NCBI GenBank assembly: GCA_028279875.1
Contig: JANQMU010000015.1
Location: 120,158-184,157, forward strand
DNA from: Rhizobiaceae bacterium
Lineage (GTDB): Bacteria > Pseudomonadota > Alphaproteobacteria > Rhizobiales > Rhizobiaceae
Direction: 5' to 3'
DNA length: 64,000 nt
The stretch's first letter is position 1. Each line of letters starts with the position of its first letter. The position numbers and the translations under genes were made by a program. A model generated the notes under the pieces. The model was not told the origin of the DNA, ran no database searches, and saw only the letters and a program-made list of their open reading frames with translations. Below, piece after piece: positions 1,426 through 10,895 of the stretch.

Positions 1426-2964
1426 TCAGTAATCCTGATTGAGCGCGTCTTCAGCCGGAATTTCCCGCTCACGACGGGCCACATAGTCGCGCAGCGCCTC
1501 ATCCGTGGCCTCATCGAGCTTCGGTTCCTGATATTCGGCAAGCAGTTTTTTGGCCCTATCAAGCGCCCGCTCGGTGATCTCGACACTGCCTTCCGCCTGC
1601 CACTGCTCGATGGAGTTGTTGTCGAAAAGCTGCGGCATGAAATAGGCGCGTTCGAAATTGGCCTGCGTATGAGCATGGCCAAGATAGTGCCCGCCCGGTC
1701 CGATGTCGCGGACCGCCGCAAGGCCCTCCTCGAAATCGTCCCAGCGGATGCCCTCAGCCATCCGGTAACCCATCGCGCATTGTTCCGCGTCGACCACGAA
1801 TTTGGCGACGGAACAGTGCATCCCGGCCTCGTTCCATCCCGCCGAGTGCCAGATGTAATTGGCGCCGGCATGTAGAACGGCCGACAGCGTGGTCGCGCTC
1901 TCATAGCCGGCCTGGGCGTCGAACGTCTTGGCGCCGCCAAGCGTGTTGGAGGTGCGCCAGGGCACATCGTAGTAACGGGCCATCTGGCCGATCATGAAAT
2001 TCATCAGGCTGATTTCCGGCGTGCCGGCCATCGGTGCACCCGACTGCATCGACACCGTCGACAGATAGTGGCCGTAGATCGCCGGCGCGCCCTTGCGGAT
2101 CACCTGGGTATAGGCGAGCGCCGACAGCGCCTCGGCATTGAGCTGGGCAACGGTCGGTGCGACGGAGGCCGGCGTGTTGGCGCCGCCAAGCACGAAGGGA
2201 GAGCACAGAACAGGCTGGTTGCGGCGGCAGAAGGCGCGCAGGGCACCCAGCATCGTCTCGTCCCACACCAGCGGTGAATTGCCGTTGCAATTGCCGGTCG
2301 TCACCGGATGGGTCTCGAGAAACGCCTCGCCGAACAGTATCGCGCACATTTCCATCACGTCTTCGGCGTTTTTCGGGCTCGTCGTCATGCCCATAAAAGT
2401 CTTGTCGGAATATTTCATCGACGAATAGGTGATCCGCAGGTGGCGATGGGCGACAACATGATCCATCGGCTCGACGATGTGGTGCGCCGAGGAATGCAGG
2501 GCAGGCGACATGTGGCTGAGCTTGTGGAGCATCGCCAGGTCCTCGAGCGTCGGCAGCCGGCGCTTGTCGTCCAGATCCCGAAGATACGGGGCTCCGGTCA
2601 TGGGAACGAAGATGGAATGTGGGCCGCCCAGCGCGACATTCTTTTCCGGGTTGCGCGCGTGATAGGTGAACGAGGCCGGAATGGTCCGGATCAGTTCGCG
2701 CACCAGGCCGCGATCGAGATGCACCCGCTCGCCGCGCACCTCGGCGCCGGCCTTTTGCCAGTCGTCCAGGGCAATGGGATCGCGGAAAACAACGCCGACA
2801 TCTTCAAGGATGCCCATCGAGGCATCGTCGATCCGCTCCACCTGTTCGGCGTCCATTGGCTCGCACAGCGGCAGCTTGCGCCGCAGTGCCGGCAGCATGT
2901 CGACTTTTGAAACCGTGCGTTCCGCCCGGCGCGCCGAACGTCCGCCTGCACGCCTGTCAGCCAT
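1426..2964 (-). CDS. Trimethylamine methyltransferase (MttB) family protein, non-pyrrolysine type
   Basis: 512-aa uninterrupted ORF with an MttB-superfamily-like sequence (ILEDVGVVF, TGNCNGNSPLVWDETMLGALRAF, GGPGH-like GPGGHYLGHAHT). No in-frame amber codon. Confidence 0.8.
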   Translation of the reverse strand: MADRRAGGRSARRAERTVSKVDMLPALRRKLPLCEPMDAEQVERIDDASMGILEDVGVVFRDPIALDDWQKAGAEVRGERVHLDRGLVRELIRTIPASFTYHARNPEKNVALGGPHSIFVPMTGAPYLRDLDDKRRLPTLEDLAMLHKLSHMSPALHSSAHHIVEPMDHVVAHRHLRITYSSMKYSDKTFMGMTTSPKNAEDVMEMCAILFGEAFLETHPVTTGNCNGNSPLVWDETMLGALRAFCRRNQPVLCSPFVLGGANTPASVAPTVAQLNAEALSALAYTQVIRKGAPAIYGHYLSTVSMQSGAPMAGTPEISLMNFMIGQMARYYDVPWRTSNTLGGAKTFDAQAGYESATTLSAVLHAGANYIWHSAGWNEAGMHCSVAKFVVDAEQCAMGYRMAEGIRWDDFEEGLAAVRDIGPGGHYLGHAHTQANFERAYFMPQLFDNNSIEQWQAEGSVEITERALDRAKKLLAEYQEPKLDEATDEALRDYVARREREIPAEDALNQDY

Positions 2965-3095
2965 GGCGCCTGCTCCCTGTCATTGCCCATCGGCCCAGTC
3001 TTAGCGGAGCCGCGATGAGCGACGATCATCTTAGCGACATCCCCGCGCAAAAAGCGACTCGCGGCACATGCTGACAGATCGAACGGGTAAAATAA

Positions 3096-3141
3096 TTGAC
3101 CATGTTAACTATCGGCGGTACAGTTAACACTGATAACTATC
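3096..3141 (+). promoter_or_regulatory. Candidate promoter plus MarR operator upstream of marR-rdhA
   Basis: TTGACC (3096-3101), N17, TACAGT (3119-3124). Inverted repeat TGTTAACT (3103-3110) / AGTTAACA (3122-3129). Direct repeat TAACTATC at 3106-3113 and 3134-3141. Confidence 0.55.
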
Positions 3142-3168
3142 TCCGTTGCCCGGCCCGGATGGGAGTTC

Positions 3169-3624
3169 ATGTCGTCAACAGACGAATACAGCCTGCACAA
3201 AAGGCTTGGATACAAGGTCTCGCGGCTGGCGCGGCTGATGGAGGCGCGGCTCGAAGCCATGATGGGCGATCTCGGCATCACCCGGATGATGTGGTGTGTC
3301 CTGAGCGGCGTCGGCCTTGAGGATGTGACGACGCCATCCGACCTGGCGCGTTACATCGGCATCGCGCGCCCGACCGTCTCACGAGTCCTGCGGGAGATGG
3401 AAAGCAAGGGCCTGATCCGCAGGATCGGTGCCGAGGGCGACGGGCGATGCGTGAAGATACGACTGACCGACAGGGGCATGTCGATGCTGCAGAAATGCCG
3501 GCCGCTCGTCGATCAGCTGAACGCGCATTTCGGCAGCAAACTGAACCCCGGTGACCTCGAGGCAATCCTGGCGCAACTCGATGCGCTCGCCGAAGGCGAG
3601 ACGCGGGAATTGACCTCCATTTAG
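3169..3624 (+). CDS. MarR family transcriptional regulator
   Basis: wHTH pattern TTPSDLARYIGIARPTVSRVLREMESKGLIRRIGAEGDGRCVKIRLTDRG. GGGAG Shine-Dalgarno upstream of ATG. Confidence 0.85.
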   Translation: MSSTDEYSLHKRLGYKVSRLARLMEARLEAMMGDLGITRMMWCVLSGVGLEDVTTPSDLARYIGIARPTVSRVLREMESKGLIRRIGAEGDGRCVKIRLTDRGMSMLQKCRPLVDQLNAHFGSKLNPGDLEAILAQLDALAEGETRELTSI

Positions 3625-3635
3625 GACCGATTGCG

Positions 3636-6600
3636 ATGAAGATGTTTTCCTACAAGAACCGGCCGGTGCATCTGGGGCCTTTCCCGCTCGAGACGCTCAG
3701 GCGGTCCAGGAGCAGTGTCGATCTGCAGTCCATCGAGCCGATGCGTCCGCTGACATGCGATCATCAGCCGCCGGAGTCGCTGGCCCATGCCATCGCCCGC
3801 TTCATGGGGATGATGGACACGGTCCGCGACGGCAAGATCGTCTATGGCGAGGCGGAAATCCCCGCCGATCCGAGCCTTCGCGCCGAACATCTGAAAGCCG
3901 CGGGCTACTATTTCGATGCATCGATGGTCGGCATAACGCGGCTGGAAAAAGACCATTTCCTGGAAACACCGTTACGCAATCCGGTGATCGACGACATCAA
4001 GGCGGAGTTGGAACGCAGTCAGCCGAAGAGCTTCGCATCGGGTGTCGATGCCACTTACGCCGACGTTCTGGAATCGGCGCGCATCAAGCTCGACCCGGTC
4101 GATCATCATACCCACGCCCTCGTCTTTCTCGTCGAATATACGCGGGACCCGAGGCCCGACGAAGCCGGAACGGACTGGTTTCACGACACACAGGCCGATC
4201 GAGCGGCCCTGCTGACATCGAATGTTTCCGCCGTTCTGGCAAGCTATATCCGCATGCTCGGCCATGAGGCCAGGTCCCATACGGCCACCACATCCGATGT
4301 CGATCTGAACCGGCTGGCCGTGTCGGCCGGCCTGTGTGCGGCAGAGCGGATCGAAGGACGTCAGCAGCTTGTCAATCCCTATGTCGGCCCACGCTTTGGA
4401 CTGGCGGCGATCACCACGACACTGGAACTTGAACCCGACCTGCCGCTTGGGCCGAATGCCGGGCGCGCGGGGTGGCATTCGCACGGCCCGTCCTGGTGGC
4501 TCGGCAAGGGAACCGCCCGCCGGGCCGGAACGGCGACACCCTACGCGGATCGCGAGTTCCATAAGGGGGCCCACCCGTTCGAAACCATCAAGCGGCGAGA
4601 CACGCCGACCACCATGATCGATGAGGAACGCGTTCCACGGTTTCCCAAGCGAGCGGATTTCTTCGCCCGCGCCCTGTTCGGCGACATGGGAAAGAACGTT
4701 CAGGACTGTGCCAAGGGCGGCGCGTATGTCATGAAAAGCCCGATCGGCGCCTGCGCCCGTCGGGCATTGGGCGCGCTCCTGCTCCTGCAGTTCGGCGATG
4801 CGCGGGGCCCGGTTTCAAAAAGCACGCAGGATCCGGCGCGCAACGCCAAGAACCTGAAGGCGGCCGCCTATTATCTCTCCGCCGACGCCGTCGGGCTTAG
4901 CCGGGTACCGGAATGGGCCTATTATTCCCATGACGCGGGCGGCAATCCGATGCAGCCCTATCACACCAACGGCGTGTCGCTGCTTCTCGATCAGGGCCAT
5001 GAAACCATGGAAGGCGCCAGCGGCGACGACTGGATTTCCGTCGCCCAGTCGATGCGCGCCTATTTGCGGTTTTCGCTGCTGGGCGGGGTCATCGGCGAAC
5101 AGATCCGCCGGCTTGGCTATTCGGCGCGTGTGCATTCCGTGCTGGACGGCGATGTGCTGCAGCCGCCGCTTCTGCTGCTGTCGGGACTCGGCGAGGTCAG
5201 CCGCATCGGCGAGGTCATTCTCAACCCGTTCCTGGGCCCGCGACTGAAATCCGGTGTGGTCACCACCTCGATGCCGATGGAACATGACAGGCCGATCGAT
5301 TTCGGCCTGCAGAATTTCTGCAACAATTGCAACAAATGCGCGCGCGAATGCCCGTCCGGGGCCATAACGGCCGGTCCCAAGCTGATGTATAACGGCTATG
5401 AGATTTGGAAGTCCGACGCGGAAAAATGCGCCCGCTACCGCCTGACCAATACGGCGGGCGGCATGTGCGGCCGGTGCATGAAAACCTGCCCCTGGAACCT
5501 GGAAGGCCTGTTTTCGGACGAAGCGTTCCGCTGGCTGGCGATCAACGCCCCGGCATCGGCCAAGACCTTGGCACGGCTTGACGACACGCTCGGGCGCGGA
5601 AAGATCAATCCGGTCAAGGCGTGGTGGTGGGACATCGAACTCGACACCGCACAGGGACGGTATGTCCAGGCGGAGGCGACCAACCGGCGCGGCCTGTCGC
5701 GGGATCTCGACCTGAAATATGAGGATCAGACGCTGGCGGTCTATCCGGCCGATGTCATGCCGCCGCCCTTGCCGGTGACCCATCCGCTCAACCGCGAGGA
5801 GGGCATCGAGCGCTACCGGGCCATGCTGACGCCCGAGCAATATCGCGCCAGGATCGCCGCCGGCGACGTGGCCGATCTGGCACCCGCTGCAAAACCGCTG
5901 GAGGGAACGCCTCCGGTGTTCCCGGTGATCGTCTCGAAGCGGGACGATCTCGCCGACGATGTCGTGCGGTTCGAATTGACCGCTGAAAACGGCAGCGCGC
6001 TTCCACCCTTTGAGGCCGGGGCCCATATCGATGTCGTTGTTGCGCCGGAGTATCAGCGGCAATACTCGCTCGCCGGCGACCCGGCGGACCAGAGCAAATA
6101 TGTGCTCGGCGTATTGAAGGAGGCCGAAGGGCGTGGCGGTTCGCTGCTGATGTACCGGATTTTCAAGGAGGGTCGCCGGATTTTTGTCTCCGAACCGCGA
6201 AACCATTTCCCGCTGGACGAGGATGCGGCATTCACGGTGCTGATGGCCGGCGGGATCGGTGTTACGCCGCTGATCACCATGGCCCATCGTCTGCACGCGC
6301 TGGGTCGCGATTTCGTGCTCCACTACAGCGCGAAATCCGAGTCGCAATGCGGCTTTGCCGCCGAGTTGCAGTCCGTTCCCTGGGCCGACCACGTGTTCTT
6401 TCATTATTCGGCCGACGGAACGCGGGCCAAGTTGAGCGAGTTGATCCCGTCCCACAGGGACGGCTTCCGGCTCTACACCTGCGGCAGCGATCGCTACATG
6501 GATGCGGTTTTTGAGATGGCCGAGCAGAAGAGCTGGCCGTCCGAGAGCCTGTCGAAAGAGTATTTTTCCGTGCCCGAACCGCCGGATTTCATCAATCATC

Positions 6601-6863
6601 CGTTCCATCTGGAGCTCCAGAAGACCGGAAAGACGATCCATGTCGGTGCCGACCAGAGTGCCACCGATGCGCTCGCGGAGGCCGGCGTGCCGGTTCTTGT
6701 CAAATGCACCGATGGCCTGTGCGGCGTCTGCGCTGCGACATACAGTTCCGGCGACATCGAGCATCGCGACTATGTTCTGTCGCAAAAGGAGCGTGAGTCG
6801 AAAGTCATTCTGTGCTGCTCGCGCGCCAGCGAGCCGGAAGGCACCATCAAAATCGACTTGTGA
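3636..6863 (+). CDS. rdhA: Self-sufficient (aerobic/catabolic type) reductive dehalogenase fused to a flavin/ferredoxin reductase
   Basis: Duplicated dehalogenase/B12-type units; CNNCNKCARECP and CGRCMKTCPW iron-sulfur motifs; RQYSLAG and AGGIGVTPLI flavin/NAD motifs; C-terminal CTDGLCGVC [2Fe-2S] motif. No Tat signal. Architecture matches BhbA-type enzymes. Confidence 0.9.
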   Translation: MKMFSYKNRPVHLGPFPLETLRRSRSSVDLQSIEPMRPLTCDHQPPESLAHAIARFMGMMDTVRDGKIVYGEAEIPADPSLRAEHLKAAGYYFDASMVGITRLEKDHFLETPLRNPVIDDIKAELERSQPKSFASGVDATYADVLESARIKLDPVDHHTHALVFLVEYTRDPRPDEAGTDWFHDTQADRAALLTSNVSAVLASYIRMLGHEARSHTATTSDVDLNRLAVSAGLCAAERIEGRQQLVNPYVGPRFGLAAITTTLELEPDLPLGPNAGRAGWHSHGPSWWLGKGTARRAGTATPYADREFHKGAHPFETIKRRDTPTTMIDEERVPRFPKRADFFARALFGDMGKNVQDCAKGGAYVMKSPIGACARRALGALLLLQFGDARGPVSKSTQDPARNAKNLKAAAYYLSADAVGLSRVPEWAYYSHDAGGNPMQPYHTNGVSLLLDQGHETMEGASGDDWISVAQSMRAYLRFSLLGGVIGEQIRRLGYSARVHSVLDGDVLQPPLLLLSGLGEVSRIGEVILNPFLGPRLKSGVVTTSMPMEHDRPIDFGLQNFCNNCNKCARECPSGAITAGPKLMYNGYEIWKSDAEKCARYRLTNTAGGMCGRCMKTCPWNLEGLFSDEAFRWLAINAPASAKTLARLDDTLGRGKINPVKAWWWDIELDTAQGRYVQAEATNRRGLSRDLDLKYEDQTLAVYPADVMPPPLPVTHPLNREEGIERYRAMLTPEQYRARIAAGDVADLAPAAKPLEGTPPVFPVIVSKRDDLADDVVRFELTAENGSALPPFEAGAHIDVVVAPEYQRQYSLAGDPADQSKYVLGVLKEAEGRGGSLLMYRIFKEGRRIFVSEPRNHFPLDEDAAFTVLMAGGIGVTPLITMAHRLHALGRDFVLHYSAKSESQCGFAAELQSVPWADHVFFHYSADGTRAKLSELIPSHRDGFRLYTCGSDRYMDAVFEMAEQKSWPSESLSKEYFSVPEPPDFINHPFHLELQKTGKTIHVGADQSATDALAEAGVPVLVKCTDGLCGVCAATYSSGDIEHRDYVLSQKERESKVILCCSRASEPEGTIKIDL

Positions 6864-6954: not shown

Positions 6955-8382
6955 TTGAGCAGACAAGGGTTGCGTGTGCCATTTAACGAGATGGAAGATA
7001 CATCCGGGCCGCGACCGCCCTATCGGCGCATCGCGGACTGGATTGCAGAGACCGGCACAGAACTTCTAGGCCAGCGCCGCGCCGAGGCGGAGGCCATTTT
7101 CCGCAAAATCGGAATCACATTTGCCGTTTACGGGGAGGGGGGCGATCCCGAACGGCTCATACCGTTTGACCTGATACCGCGGGCATTTTCAGCATCCGAG
7201 TGGTCCGTGCTGCAGCGCGGCATCCGCCAGCGGGCGCGCGCGCTCAATGCGTTTTTGTATGACATCTATCACCGCGGCGAGATCATCAAGGCGGGGATTG
7301 TGCCTGCCGACCTTGTTTACCGCAACACCGCCTATCTGCCGCAGATGGTCGGATTCGAACCGCCTGGCCGTGTCTACAGCCACATTGTCGGCATCGACAT
7401 CGTCCGAACCGGGCCGGACAGTTTTCAGGTTCTGGAAGACAATTGCCGCACCCCGTCGGGTGTCAGCTATATGCTGGAAAACCGCGAGATCATGGCGCGC
7501 ATGTTTCCGGAAGTCTTTTCCGGCGGCCCGGTCGAACCGGTCGACCACTATCCCGACGAACTGCTCAGGACGCTCAAGGAAGTGGCGCCTGCGGCGTGCC
7601 GGGGCGAGCCGACAGTGGTCGTGCTGACGCCCGGCTCGCTCAACTCGGCCTATTACGAACACTCGTTTCTGGCCGACCTGATGGGTGTCGAACTGGTCGA
7701 GCCGCAGGACCTGTTTGTCGATGACGCGCAGGTCTGGATGCGCACGACGCGCGGCCCCCAGCGGGTCGATGTCATTTATCGGCGCATCGACGATGCTTAT
7801 ATCGATCCGCTGACTTTCCGGCCGGACAGCCTGCTGGGCATTCCGGGCCTTTTCGATGCCTACCGCGCCGGCGCGGTGAACATCTGTTCGGCGCCCGGCG
7901 CCGGCGTCGCCGACGACAAGGCGATCTATATCTATGTGCCGGAGATGATCCGCTTTTATCTCGGCGAAGAACCGGTGCTCGAGAACATCCCGACCTATCA
8001 GTGCGGACGGCCCGACGAACGCGACCATGTGCTTGAAAATCTCCATGAGCTCGTGGTCAAGGAAGTTCACGGTTCGGGCGGCTACGGCATGCTGATCGGC
8101 CCGAAGAGCAGCGAGGCGGAGATTGCCGCCTATCGCAAACGCATTCTCGCTGACCCGGCCGATTTCATCGCCCAGCCCACACTGGATCTGTCGACGGCGC
8201 CGACGCTCGACGGAAACGAACTGTGCGGACGCCATGTCGACTTCCGGCCTTTTTGCCTTGTCGGCAAAACCATCCGCCTGGTGCCGGGCGGCCTGACGCG
8301 CGTTGCGCTGAAGGAGGGTTCGCTGGTGGTCAATTCCAGCCAGGGCGGCGGCGTCAAGGACACCTGGGTGCTGCGGGAATGA
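6955..8382 (+). CDS. Circularly permuted type 2 ATP-grasp protein (DUF404/DUF407)
   Basis: Recognisable family sequence (GITFAVYGEGGDPERLIPFDLIPR, VHGSGGYGMLIGP, NSSQGGGVKDTWVL); genomic context with alpha-E, transglutaminase and Anbu. Confidence 0.9.
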   Translation: MSRQGLRVPFNEMEDTSGPRPPYRRIADWIAETGTELLGQRRAEAEAIFRKIGITFAVYGEGGDPERLIPFDLIPRAFSASEWSVLQRGIRQRARALNAFLYDIYHRGEIIKAGIVPADLVYRNTAYLPQMVGFEPPGRVYSHIVGIDIVRTGPDSFQVLEDNCRTPSGVSYMLENREIMARMFPEVFSGGPVEPVDHYPDELLRTLKEVAPAACRGEPTVVVLTPGSLNSAYYEHSFLADLMGVELVEPQDLFVDDAQVWMRTTRGPQRVDVIYRRIDDAYIDPLTFRPDSLLGIPGLFDAYRAGAVNICSAPGAGVADDKAIYIYVPEMIRFYLGEEPVLENIPTYQCGRPDERDHVLENLHELVVKEVHGSGGYGMLIGPKSSEAEIAAYRKRILADPADFIAQPTLDLSTAPTLDGNELCGRHVDFRPFCLVGKTIRLVPGGLTRVALKEGSLVVNSSQGGGVKDTWVLRE

Positions 8383-8386
8383 GACC

Positions 8387-9310
8387 ATGCTGAGCCGTGC
8401 CGCCGAAAACCTGTTCTGGCTGGGCCGCTACATGGAGCGGGCCGAAGCCACGGCACGCATGATCTCCATGGGGCAGCGCATGTCGATGCTGCCCGGTGCG
8501 CCGGATCGCTCGGAATGGACCTCCGTCATGCAGGCCACCCACGTCACCTTGGCAACGGACCGGCCCGTATCGGAAACCGACATCGTCACCGATCTGATCC
8601 TGGATACCGTGAGCCCGTCGGCGATCCAGGCCTGCCTTGCCAAGGCGCGGGAAAACGGCCGCGCCGTACGCACCGCGCTGACCCAGGAAATGTGGGAGAG
8701 CCTCAATGACGACTGGCGCTATCTGGAGGGCATGGACCCGAAGACCGCGCGCCAGCAACTGAGCCGCATTCTGGAATGGGTCCGCAGCCGCGCCGCTGTG
8801 TTCCGCGGCGCCGTCGAAACGGCGATGCTGCGCAATGACGGTTATGATTTCCTGCGGCTTGGCGGCAGTATCGAACGGGCCGATATGACCCTGCGCCTGC
8901 TCAACGTCAAATATTTTCTGCTGCTGCCGGAAACGGAGGTTGTCGGCGGCGGCCGGGACCATCACCAGTGGATGTCGATGCTGCATGCGGTGTCGGGCCT
9001 CAGGGCCTATCATCATCACTATCTCGGTGACTATGCACCCTGGAATATTGCCGATTTCCTGCTGCTCAATCAGGCCTTCCCGCGATCCGTGGCCTACAGC
9101 TACAGCCAGATCAACGCTTGTCTGGAGCGCCTGGAAAAGAGCCATGGCGGCGCCCATGCCTGTCAGAGGACGGCACGCGGCGAATGCGACCTCCTGGGCC
9201 GCATCGACATCAACACCATTTTCAATGACGGGCTGCACGAGTTCCTCAACGAGCAGATCGCCAGGACCGCGCGGATCAGTCAGGAGGTGTCCGATGCCTA
9301 TCATTTTTGA
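8387..9310 (+). CDS. Alpha-E domain-containing protein (DUF403)
   Basis: MLSRAAENLFWLGRYMERAEATARMI N-terminus typical of the family; operon context. Confidence 0.9.
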   Translation: MLSRAAENLFWLGRYMERAEATARMISMGQRMSMLPGAPDRSEWTSVMQATHVTLATDRPVSETDIVTDLILDTVSPSAIQACLAKARENGRAVRTALTQEMWESLNDDWRYLEGMDPKTARQQLSRILEWVRSRAAVFRGAVETAMLRNDGYDFLRLGGSIERADMTLRLLNVKYFLLLPETEVVGGGRDHHQWMSMLHAVSGLRAYHHHYLGDYAPWNIADFLLLNQAFPRSVAYSYSQINACLERLEKSHGGAHACQRTARGECDLLGRIDINTIFNDGLHEFLNEQIARTARISQEVSDAYHF

Positions 9311-9322
9311 CGGTATGCGCCG

Positions 9323-10132
9323 ATGCAGCTGAACGTGTCCCACCGCTCGACTTATGCCTACACGCCGGCCGCCGCGCGGGTGTCGCTTCGCCTGAAGCTG
9401 TTCCCGTCGGTGTTTGACGGGCAGAGCGTTGAGTCCTGGCAGGTCACGGTCAATAGCGATCCGGTGACGCCGATCTACATGACCGGCTATGGCGACGAGG
9501 TGGCCCTGTGGCTCAGCCGCGATCCGGTCGAGAATGTCGAGGTGATCGCCGAAGGTGTTGTCGTCACCGAAGACAAGACCGGGGTCATCCGCGATCTGCC
9601 GCGCAAGCCGCCTTCCGCCCTCTTTACACGGGTGACGGAACTCACCTGTCCGGATGAGGCGATTGTGCAACTGGCGAAGGAATCCGAAAAGGCCGATCCG
9701 CTGGAAACCGCACACGCTCTGTCGCTGGCGATCAAGGACACGGTGGCCTACCGCGCCAAGGTGACGAACAGCGAGACTACCGCCGCCGAGGCGCTGGCTG
9801 CCGGAGCAGGGGTCTGCCAGGACCATGCCCACATTTTCATTGCCGGCTGCCGGTCGCTCGGTATTCCGGCTCGCTATGTGACCGGATATCTGCAGGCGGC
9901 GGAGGACGAGGCGGACCTGTTGGAAACCCACGCATGGGCCGAGGCGCATATCCGCGATTTCGGCTGGATCGGCATCGATCCGTCGAACGGGATTTCACCC
10001 ACCGACCACTATATCCGGATCGCCTGTGGGCTGGACGCTGACGACGCGACTCCGATAAAAGGCCACGTGGTCGGCGGTTCACAAATATCGCTGACCGCAG
10101 AGGTTGCCGTGGCCGACGGCCAGCAGCAATAA
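9323..10132 (+). CDS. Transglutaminase-like cysteine protease family protein
   Basis: AGAGVCQDHAHIFIAGCRSLGIPARYVTGY (Cys), ETHAWAEAHI (His), GIDPSNG (Asp). Confidence 0.9.
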   Translation: MQLNVSHRSTYAYTPAAARVSLRLKLFPSVFDGQSVESWQVTVNSDPVTPIYMTGYGDEVALWLSRDPVENVEVIAEGVVVTEDKTGVIRDLPRKPPSALFTRVTELTCPDEAIVQLAKESEKADPLETAHALSLAIKDTVAYRAKVTNSETTAAEALAAGAGVCQDHAHIFIAGCRSLGIPARYVTGYLQAAEDEADLLETHAWAEAHIRDFGWIGIDPSNGISPTDHYIRIACGLDADDATPIKGHVVGGSQISLTAEVAVADGQQQ

Positions 10133-10160
10133 GCCGCAAAAACGGAGAAGGGCGCTTCGG

Positions 10161-10895
10161 TTGACATATTGCGTTGCGATCAAGCTCGATGCGGGACTTG
10201 TGCTCCTGTCGGACACCCGGACCAATGCCGGGCTGGACAATATTTCCCGCTACGGAAAGATGCATTGCTGGGAAACCCCCGGCGAGCGCGCCGTGGCGCT
10301 GATGACCGCGGGAAACTTGTCGATCACCCAAGGTGTGATCACCCGGCTCGAAAAGCAGATCGAGATGGCGGCGGTCGATCCGGACACGGAAACGATCCTC
10401 AATGCCGACAGCATGTTCCGCATCGCCCAGATCGTCGGTGAAACCATGCGCGATGTACAGGAGCGCCACCGCGACGGGATGGAAGCACAGGGCGCCACAT
10501 TCAGTTCGACGATCCTGGTTGGCGGTCAGCGCAAGGGTGGCTCGCTTCGCCTGTTTTTGGTCTATTCGGCCGGCAATTTCATCGAGGCGACCCGAGACAC
10601 GCCGTTTTTCCAGATCGGTGAACATAAATACGGCAAGCCCATCCTCGATCGCGTGATCACCTCTTCCACGCCGCTCGAGAAAGCCAAGCTGGCAGCATGC
10701 GTGTCGATGGATTCAACCTTGCGGAGCAACCTGTCCGTCGGCATGCCGCTGGACCTGGCAATCATCGAAACGGACAAGTTGAGGTTTTCCGAACGCCGCC
10801 GCATCGAAGCCGACGACGGCGATTTCAACGCCCTGTCGGAATCCTGGTCGCGGGCGTTGAATTCGGCTTTCCACGACCTGCCGCAACTGCTGTGA
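10161..10895 (+). CDS. Anbu / proteasome-type protease
   Basis: TTG start at 10161 (in frame with the 10104 ORF) gives MTYCVAIKLDAGLVLLSDTRTNAG with Thr2. Preceded by GGAGAAGGG. Operon context. Confidence 0.88.
   Translation: MTYCVAIKLDAGLVLLSDTRTNAGLDNISRYGKMHCWETPGERAVALMTAGNLSITQGVITRLEKQIEMAAVDPDTETILNADSMFRIAQIVGETMRDVQERHRDGMEAQGATFSSTILVGGQRKGGSLRLFLVYSAGNFIEATRDTPFFQIGEHKYGKPILDRVITSSTPLEKAKLAACVSMDSTLRSNLSVGMPLDLAIIETDKLRFSERRRIEADDGDFNALSESWSRALNSAFHDLPQLL

Follow-up and report, generated by a model that had tools for sequence, protein, structure and literature searches.

A reductive dehalogenase fused to its own reductase module in a Rhizobiaceae genome, with a putative control site shared with a TRAP transporter

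The rdhA Locus and the Architecture of Its Product

The window (the whole stretch of DNA analysed here, 64,000 nucleotides) carries an rdhA gene that begins with ATG and encodes 1075 aa with no internal stop in the ORF translation. Its product joins a catabolic reductive dehalogenase (RdhA) to a phthalate-dioxygenase-reductase-like (PDOR) module and is organised as follows.

3636..6863, + strand: RdhA-PDOR fusion, self-sufficient catabolic reductive dehalogenase (ORF, NCBIfam, PDB, BhbA alignment, model)
3636..4790, + strand: vestigial N-terminal copy of the cobalamin-binding domain (about aa 1-385, boundary approximate; aligns with NpRdhA 1-308)
4791..5861, + strand: catalytic cobalamin and 2x[4Fe-4S] domain (about aa 386-742; best TIGR02486 stretch aa 451-653; NpRdhA alignment)
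5319..5354, + strand: first [4Fe-4S] motif, CNNCNKCARECP (aa 562-573; cysteines invariant)
5466..5495, + strand: second [4Fe-4S] motif, CGRCMKTCPW (aa 611-620; cysteines invariant)
5925..6845, + strand: phthalate-dioxygenase-reductase-like module with FMN, NAD(P)H and [2Fe-2S] parts (aa 764-1070)
6057..6077, + strand: flavin motif RQYSLAG (aa 808-814; R808 and S811 invariant)
6246..6275, + strand: NAD(P)-binding motif AGGIGVTPLI (aa 871-880; G873-I874-G875 invariant)
6705..6815, + strand: [2Fe-2S] cysteines C1024, C1029, C1032 and C1060 (Fer2, PF00111, over cut-off; 4/4 invariant)

The duplication of the cobalamin domain, vestigial in one copy and functional in the other, is demonstrated by the alignment of both halves to NpRdhA, whose chain is spanned by the structure model. 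At the other end of the protein, the motif CTDGLCGVC occupies aa 1024-1032, with C1060 as the fourth cysteine, and residues 764-1070 matched phthalate dioxygenase reductase and the reductase parts of self-sufficient P450s in a PDB search (2pia at aa 766-1068, E 5.7e-56; 6kbh at aa 764-1070). An earlier, sequence-only reading had listed a 1075-aa ORF with two [4Fe-4S], flavin, NAD and [2Fe-2S] motifs and no Tat signal; the ORF is intact, all motifs are as it described them, and on inspection the sequence of the N-terminus (MKMFSYKNRPVHLGPFPLETLRRSRSS) showed no Tat motif with a hydrophobic stretch after it.

No RdhB-like anchor gene lies beside rdhA, which is flanked by a MarR gene upstream and a CP_ATPgrasp gene downstream. 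A respiratory organohalide reductase, toward which a distant kinship to PceA might point, is hardly credible given a protein that lacks a Tat motif (by inspection) and an anchor-protein-like neighbour and has an NAD(P)H reductase module fused to it.

Family Assignment and Distribution

The fusion passed the NCBIfam profile for reductive dehalogenases (TIGR02486, RDH) with 192.1 bits against a cut-off of 160.35, its best PDB match by sequence was NpRdhA (4ras/6zxu, E ~4e-166), and BhbA aligned with it end to end at 51% identity; the catabolic BhbA/NpRdhA-type identity first proposed from the motifs is thereby well supported. In Pfam, PF13486 ("Dehalogenase") does not report the window protein and detects only a short RdhA on contig C86 of the source genome. 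An AlphaFold model of the fusion (31-row alignment; pLDDT 83.5, pTM 0.83) had NpRdhA as its best PDB match in Foldseek (TM 0.91 by chain length of the target), and self-sufficient P450s and 2pia were the next folds.

Whether the protein might belong among the epoxyqueuosine reductases (QueG) had also been asked. The cobalamin/[4Fe-4S] core is common to QueG and RdhA, and TIGR00276 (QueG) does give a weak match, but this amounts to 28 bits against a cut-off of 200, a separate, true QueG (428 bits) is encoded on contig C138, and NpRdhA is the closest structure both by sequence and by fold. Together with the tree these results exclude a QueG placement, and the probability of QueG or another non-dehalogenating class III cobalamin enzyme is negligible. 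In the catalytic-domain tree, a quick tree with long outgroup branches and an unsure deep order, the nearest to the window enzyme are four same-genus sequences, followed by Chelativorans, Rhizobiaceae, Paracoccaceae and Burkholderiales. The set of 27 containing it has 99% SH-aLRT; BhbA groups with a Nitratireductor plasmid enzyme outside this set and NpRdhA with another unfused enzyme.

In a scan of GTDB, relatives were confirmed at 209 stretches, of which the best 80 were kept; among named records an alphaproteobacterial MAG comes closest (L007, 89%). A full-length fusion was present in 7/7 same-genus genomes searched as well as in the window's own. Since BhbA was already described, a Jhaorihella fusion was characterised in 2023 and relatives occur at more than 200 GTDB loci and throughout these seven genomes, the window RdhA is not a novel class; it is a clear but ordinary addition to an already characterised one. 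Its occurrence in all eight genomes examined of one alphaproteobacterial genus, with a stable chromosomal place in several, makes a recent pollutant-driven acquisition unlikely there.

The source genome encodes two other RdhA proteins. One, on contig C81 (L087, G000:C81, 8275-11427), is again a full-length RdhA-PDOR fusion, with 52-54% identity to that of the window, and lies next to LysR, TctA/TctB transporter and GST-domain genes. The third is the short, unfused RdhA of 429 aa on C86 (L088, G000:C86, 9837-11126), whose Fe-S motifs, CDICTKCADACP and CAICMRVCP, are exactly those quoted for Ros_A3X954. The source assembly is a draft of 164 contigs with an estimated contamination of 5.65%, and C30 (the contig with the transporter cassette described below), C81 and C86 may come from more than one organism; the closest relative of C30 is a same-genus genome.

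Genes Adjoining rdhA

The MarR, MttB-like and DAO genes that had been named as neighbours were all found. At 48-2964 of the window and in the upstream sequence of C125, ALDH and DAO genes have 4 bp in common and adjoin the MttB-like gene, which in the window has no in-frame stop. In two same-genus genomes (G006 and G007) the ALDH, MttB and DAO genes (72, 82 and 55% identical to the window's) form an operon on a contig other than that of MarR-RdhA, and the RdhA block still contains the CP_ATPgrasp gene, a class-III aminotransferase and upstream hydroxyacid-dehydrogenase and glutamate-synthase-like genes. ALDH-MttB-DAO is therefore a portable unit, probably for a methylated amine.

It has to be considered whether RdhA cooperates with the MttB-like methyltransferase and the DAO oxidase, for example by taking methyl groups off a methoxylated or N-methylated halogenated compound ahead of dehalogenation, all the more as 13/91 loci, many of them in Rhodobacteraceae, have an MttB-family gene no more than 2.5 kb from RdhA. 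The Rhodobacteraceae proteins, however, represent another paralogue, with 33-37% identity to the MttB of the window; MttBs that share 79-84% identity with the latter are encoded in other genomes, at a distance from RdhA; and in G006 and G007 the operon and MarR-RdhA are on different contigs. Such cooperation is accordingly very improbable, and MttB was set aside as a functional partner, being a separate module in sister genomes. MttB and DAO are best read as a separate module that adjoins MarR-RdhA by chance of position in the window and, for MttB, in G003, where it is also a neighbour. Of the gene context that had been read as one, the linkage to MarR stood and that to MttB/DAO did not.

In L066, L072, L076 and other Rhodobacteraceae loci, RdhA sits in a conserved neighbourhood with an HNOB protein, diguanylate cyclases, a HAD hydrolase and the other MttB paralogue. 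The HAD, haem-NO-binding and diguanylate cyclase genes were rejected as partners, as mere local chromosomal neighbours that are absent from the window. Downstream of rdhA, at 6955-10895, the window contains genes for CP_ATPgrasp, Alpha-E, transglutaminase and a 263-aa protein with no Pfam match, a run that we take to resemble a conserved cluster ending in a proteasome-like (Anbu) peptidase.

MarR, an Operator-Like Site and TRAP Transporters

The features upstream of rdhA are the following.

3169..3624, + strand: MarR-family regulator, 11 bp 5' of rdhA (PF12802 and PF01047 over cut-offs)
3123..3141, + strand: operator-like site GTTAACACTGATAACTATC (18/19 identical to a site beside a MarR-TRAP cassette on C30)
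3096..3124, + strand: sigma-70-like promoter TTGACC-17-TACAGT overlapping the operator-like site (weak consensus match)

The marR and rdhA genes are probably co-transcribed. MarR adjoins RdhA in 26/84 loci with enough upstream sequence; in tblastn searches G006 and G007 encode a MarR 62-64% identical to the window's directly 5' of rdhA, and G005 likewise has one next to rdhA. TRAP transporter genes lie within about 2.2 kb of RdhA in L133/L010 (near-identical), L035, L091 and L137, and the DctM proteins of these RdhA-linked TRAPs are 66-69% identical to that of L137; the plasmid locus L095 has a more distant TRAP transporter. RdhA has MarR as its stable partner, joined in several other lineages by a TRAP transporter whose genes are divergently oriented. 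At L007 (G003, 2016-4877) a TRAP lies about 5-7 kb from RdhA; it is not of the RdhA-linked type (DctP only 24-27% and DctM about 45% identical) and was discarded as a linked case.

The window rdhA locus has no TRAP cassette. Elsewhere in the source genome, on C30 (L226, G000:C30, 9020-13097), a MarR gene and TRAP DctPQM genes are followed by a GST gene and carry the operator-like site without RdhA, no remnant of which was found at this cassette. Its DctM and DctP are 86 and 78% identical to those of the RdhA locus of the same-genus genome G001, and its MarR is 75% identical to that of G001 and 53-54% to the window's. The C30 cassette resembles the transporter part of an RdhA cassette.

The region upstream of the window marR and the MarR-DctP intergenic region of C30 have in common GTTAACAC(T/A)GATAACTATC, at 18/19 positions; in 2000 dinucleotide shuffles of both regions the best score was 16 and none (0/2000) reached 17. 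When at most 2 mismatches were allowed, the only matches in the 2.53 Mb of sequence compared were upstream of MarR-RdhA (in the window and G005), between the MarR and DctP genes at the RdhA locus of G001 and at the C30 MarR-TRAP cassette. At the level of sequence the shared site is demonstrated. Most distant relatives gave no clear match in a scan of their upstream regions, and the exact site is therefore limited to the window's genus. The promoter has less weight, since a sigma-70-like match is weak evidence by itself (2 were counted in the region against 1.0 expected). Sister genomes have a sequence resembling TTGACCATGTTAA (3096-3108 of the window), and similar TTGAC...GTTAA repeats were read by eye at the promoter region of G005, G006, G007 and G014.

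These observations suggest, tentatively and somewhat short of probable, that MarR-RdhA and the unlinked MarR-TRAP (DctPQM) belong to one regulon acting through a GTTAAC-rich operator, in which import of a halogenated aromatic acid would be coupled to dehalogenation; the MarR-TRAP/RdhA cassette would then be joined in a same-genus genome and split over two places in the source genome. Carboxylates are the typical cargo of TRAP transporters. Such a MarR-controlled regulon of uptake and dehalogenation is the best new hypothesis to come from the sequence.

Catalytic Residues, Substrate and Proposed Mechanism

Residues were mapped with the numbering of NpRdhA (PMC7565698; PMC10463259), and three positions belong to the catalytic centre.

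5061..5063, + strand: Y476, equivalent to NpRdhA Y426, the proposed proton donor (alignment; role from PMC7565698)
5247..5249, + strand: K538, equivalent to NpRdhA K488 (alignment)
5439..5441, + strand: R602, equivalent to NpRdhA R552 (alignment)

A check of the Tyr/Lys/Arg equivalents against NpRdhA and BhbA had been proposed on first reading; all three are present and invariant across the fusion family. NpRdhA F291, S422 and M423 correspond to F343, S472 and M473, and all six residues are kept in the window protein, the C81 paralogue and BhbA. The lining of the pocket departs from NpRdhA at A359/K307, Y364/F310, V365/P311, V469/A419 and V502/N452 (window/NpRdhA), although near NpRdhA 307-311 the alignment contains a length difference and is uncertain. 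Positions F290, A419 and N452 of NpRdhA and the region of K307/F310/P311 are variable across the family.

Given these differences the substrate may differ from that of NpRdhA. A true RdhA-PDOR fusion acting outside the ortho-halophenol class, for example on a natural halometabolite of another scaffold, would agree with pocket-lining residues unlike those of NpRdhA and BhbA and with the absence of aromatic pathway genes beside the window rdhA, where BhbA and the OM-1 enzyme adjoin protocatechuate 4,5-dioxygenase-type genes. It is nonetheless unlikely: none of the residues for phenol binding and catalysis (F, S, M, Y, K and R) has been lost, JtRdhA, which has the same architecture, accepts many bromo- and iodophenols, and missing neighbours weigh little in a 6.9-Mb genome with PobA and many transporters elsewhere. 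The earlier suggestion of a perhaps new substrate, drawn from the apparent lack of an uptake system, is weak in view of the TRAP cassette on C30 under an apparently shared operator. As MttB/DAO/ALDH is an independent module and a TRAP uptake system exists elsewhere in the genome, nothing in the gene context points to a new substrate.

JtRdhA was reported to act with NADPH on many bromo- and iodophenols, also in air, and not to use chloro- or fluoro-compounds (PMC10463259). This preference and the retained phenol-binding residues make bromo- or iodophenolic acids the likeliest substrates of the window enzyme, by analogy. No ring-cleavage genes were seen adjoining the window rdhA. A cobalamin supply is plausible from the presence of CobN (1737 bits) in the source genome, and PobA (667 bits) offers a plausible route for 4-hydroxybenzoate products.

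As a whole, the locus is very probably explained by a cytoplasmic, NAD(P)H-driven ortho-halophenol dehalogenase that is most likely repressed by MarR and likely has a TRAP transporter in its regulon. Going by the homologues NpRdhA and JtRdhA (PMC7565698; PMC10463259) for cofactors and electron route, the C-terminal module would pass hydride from NAD(P)H to FMN, and single electrons would travel through the [2Fe-2S] and the two [4Fe-4S] clusters to a cobalamin bound base-off by the catalytic domain. Its cobalt would contact the halogen, most likely Br or I, at the ortho position of a phenolic substrate; a proton from Tyr476, with Lys538/Arg602, would yield the dehalogenated phenol and halide. 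The role would be release of a carbon source or detoxification, not respiration. The adjacent MarR most likely represses at 3096-3141, with relief by an aromatic ligand, and the TRAP transporter elsewhere in the genome, with its near-identical site, is likely under the same control.

The enzyme class is relevant to the natural bromine/iodine cycle and to aerobic clean-up of brominated phenols. What is new here is the DNA control site apparently linking RdhA to an uptake transporter elsewhere in the genome; if the regulon exists, the TRAP binding protein would reveal the natural substrate of the enzyme class.

Comparison With Known Systems

The C-terminal 300 residues of the window enzyme have the FMN/NAD/[2Fe-2S] order and motifs of phthalate dioxygenase reductase (2PIA), which, unlike the fused module, is a stand-alone partner protein of a Rieske dioxygenase. 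NpRdhA of Nitratireductor pacificus (4RAS, 6ZXU) shares the fold and catalytic residues, and its RdhA module is about 40-45% identical to the window's, but it has no fused reductase and several of its pocket-lining positions are different. The Roseobacter debrominase Ros_A3X954 (PMC13101508) is likewise a Tat-less, debrominating alphaproteobacterial RDase, although short, unfused and from a different branch. TarPQM of Rhodopseudomonas palustris, compared by description with the RdhA-linked TRAP, is a precedent for TRAP uptake of aromatic carboxylates, and its locus also holds a MarR regulator (PMC3610893).

BhbA of Comamonas sp. 7D-2 (WP_015585978) agrees with the window enzyme in domain order and catalytic residues. 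Its gene is part of a bromoxynil cluster on plasmid pBHB, with protocatechuate 4,5-dioxygenase and Tct/porin genes, whereas the window rdhA has a chromosome-like position, is linked to MarR and falls on another branch of the tree. JtRdhA of Jhaorihella thermophila (WP_104007082; PMC10463259), compared by description, has the duplicated cobalamin domain, 2x[4Fe-4S], fused PDOR and lack of a Tat signal of the window enzyme together with the same Y/K/R and F/S/M residues, and has been characterised biochemically.
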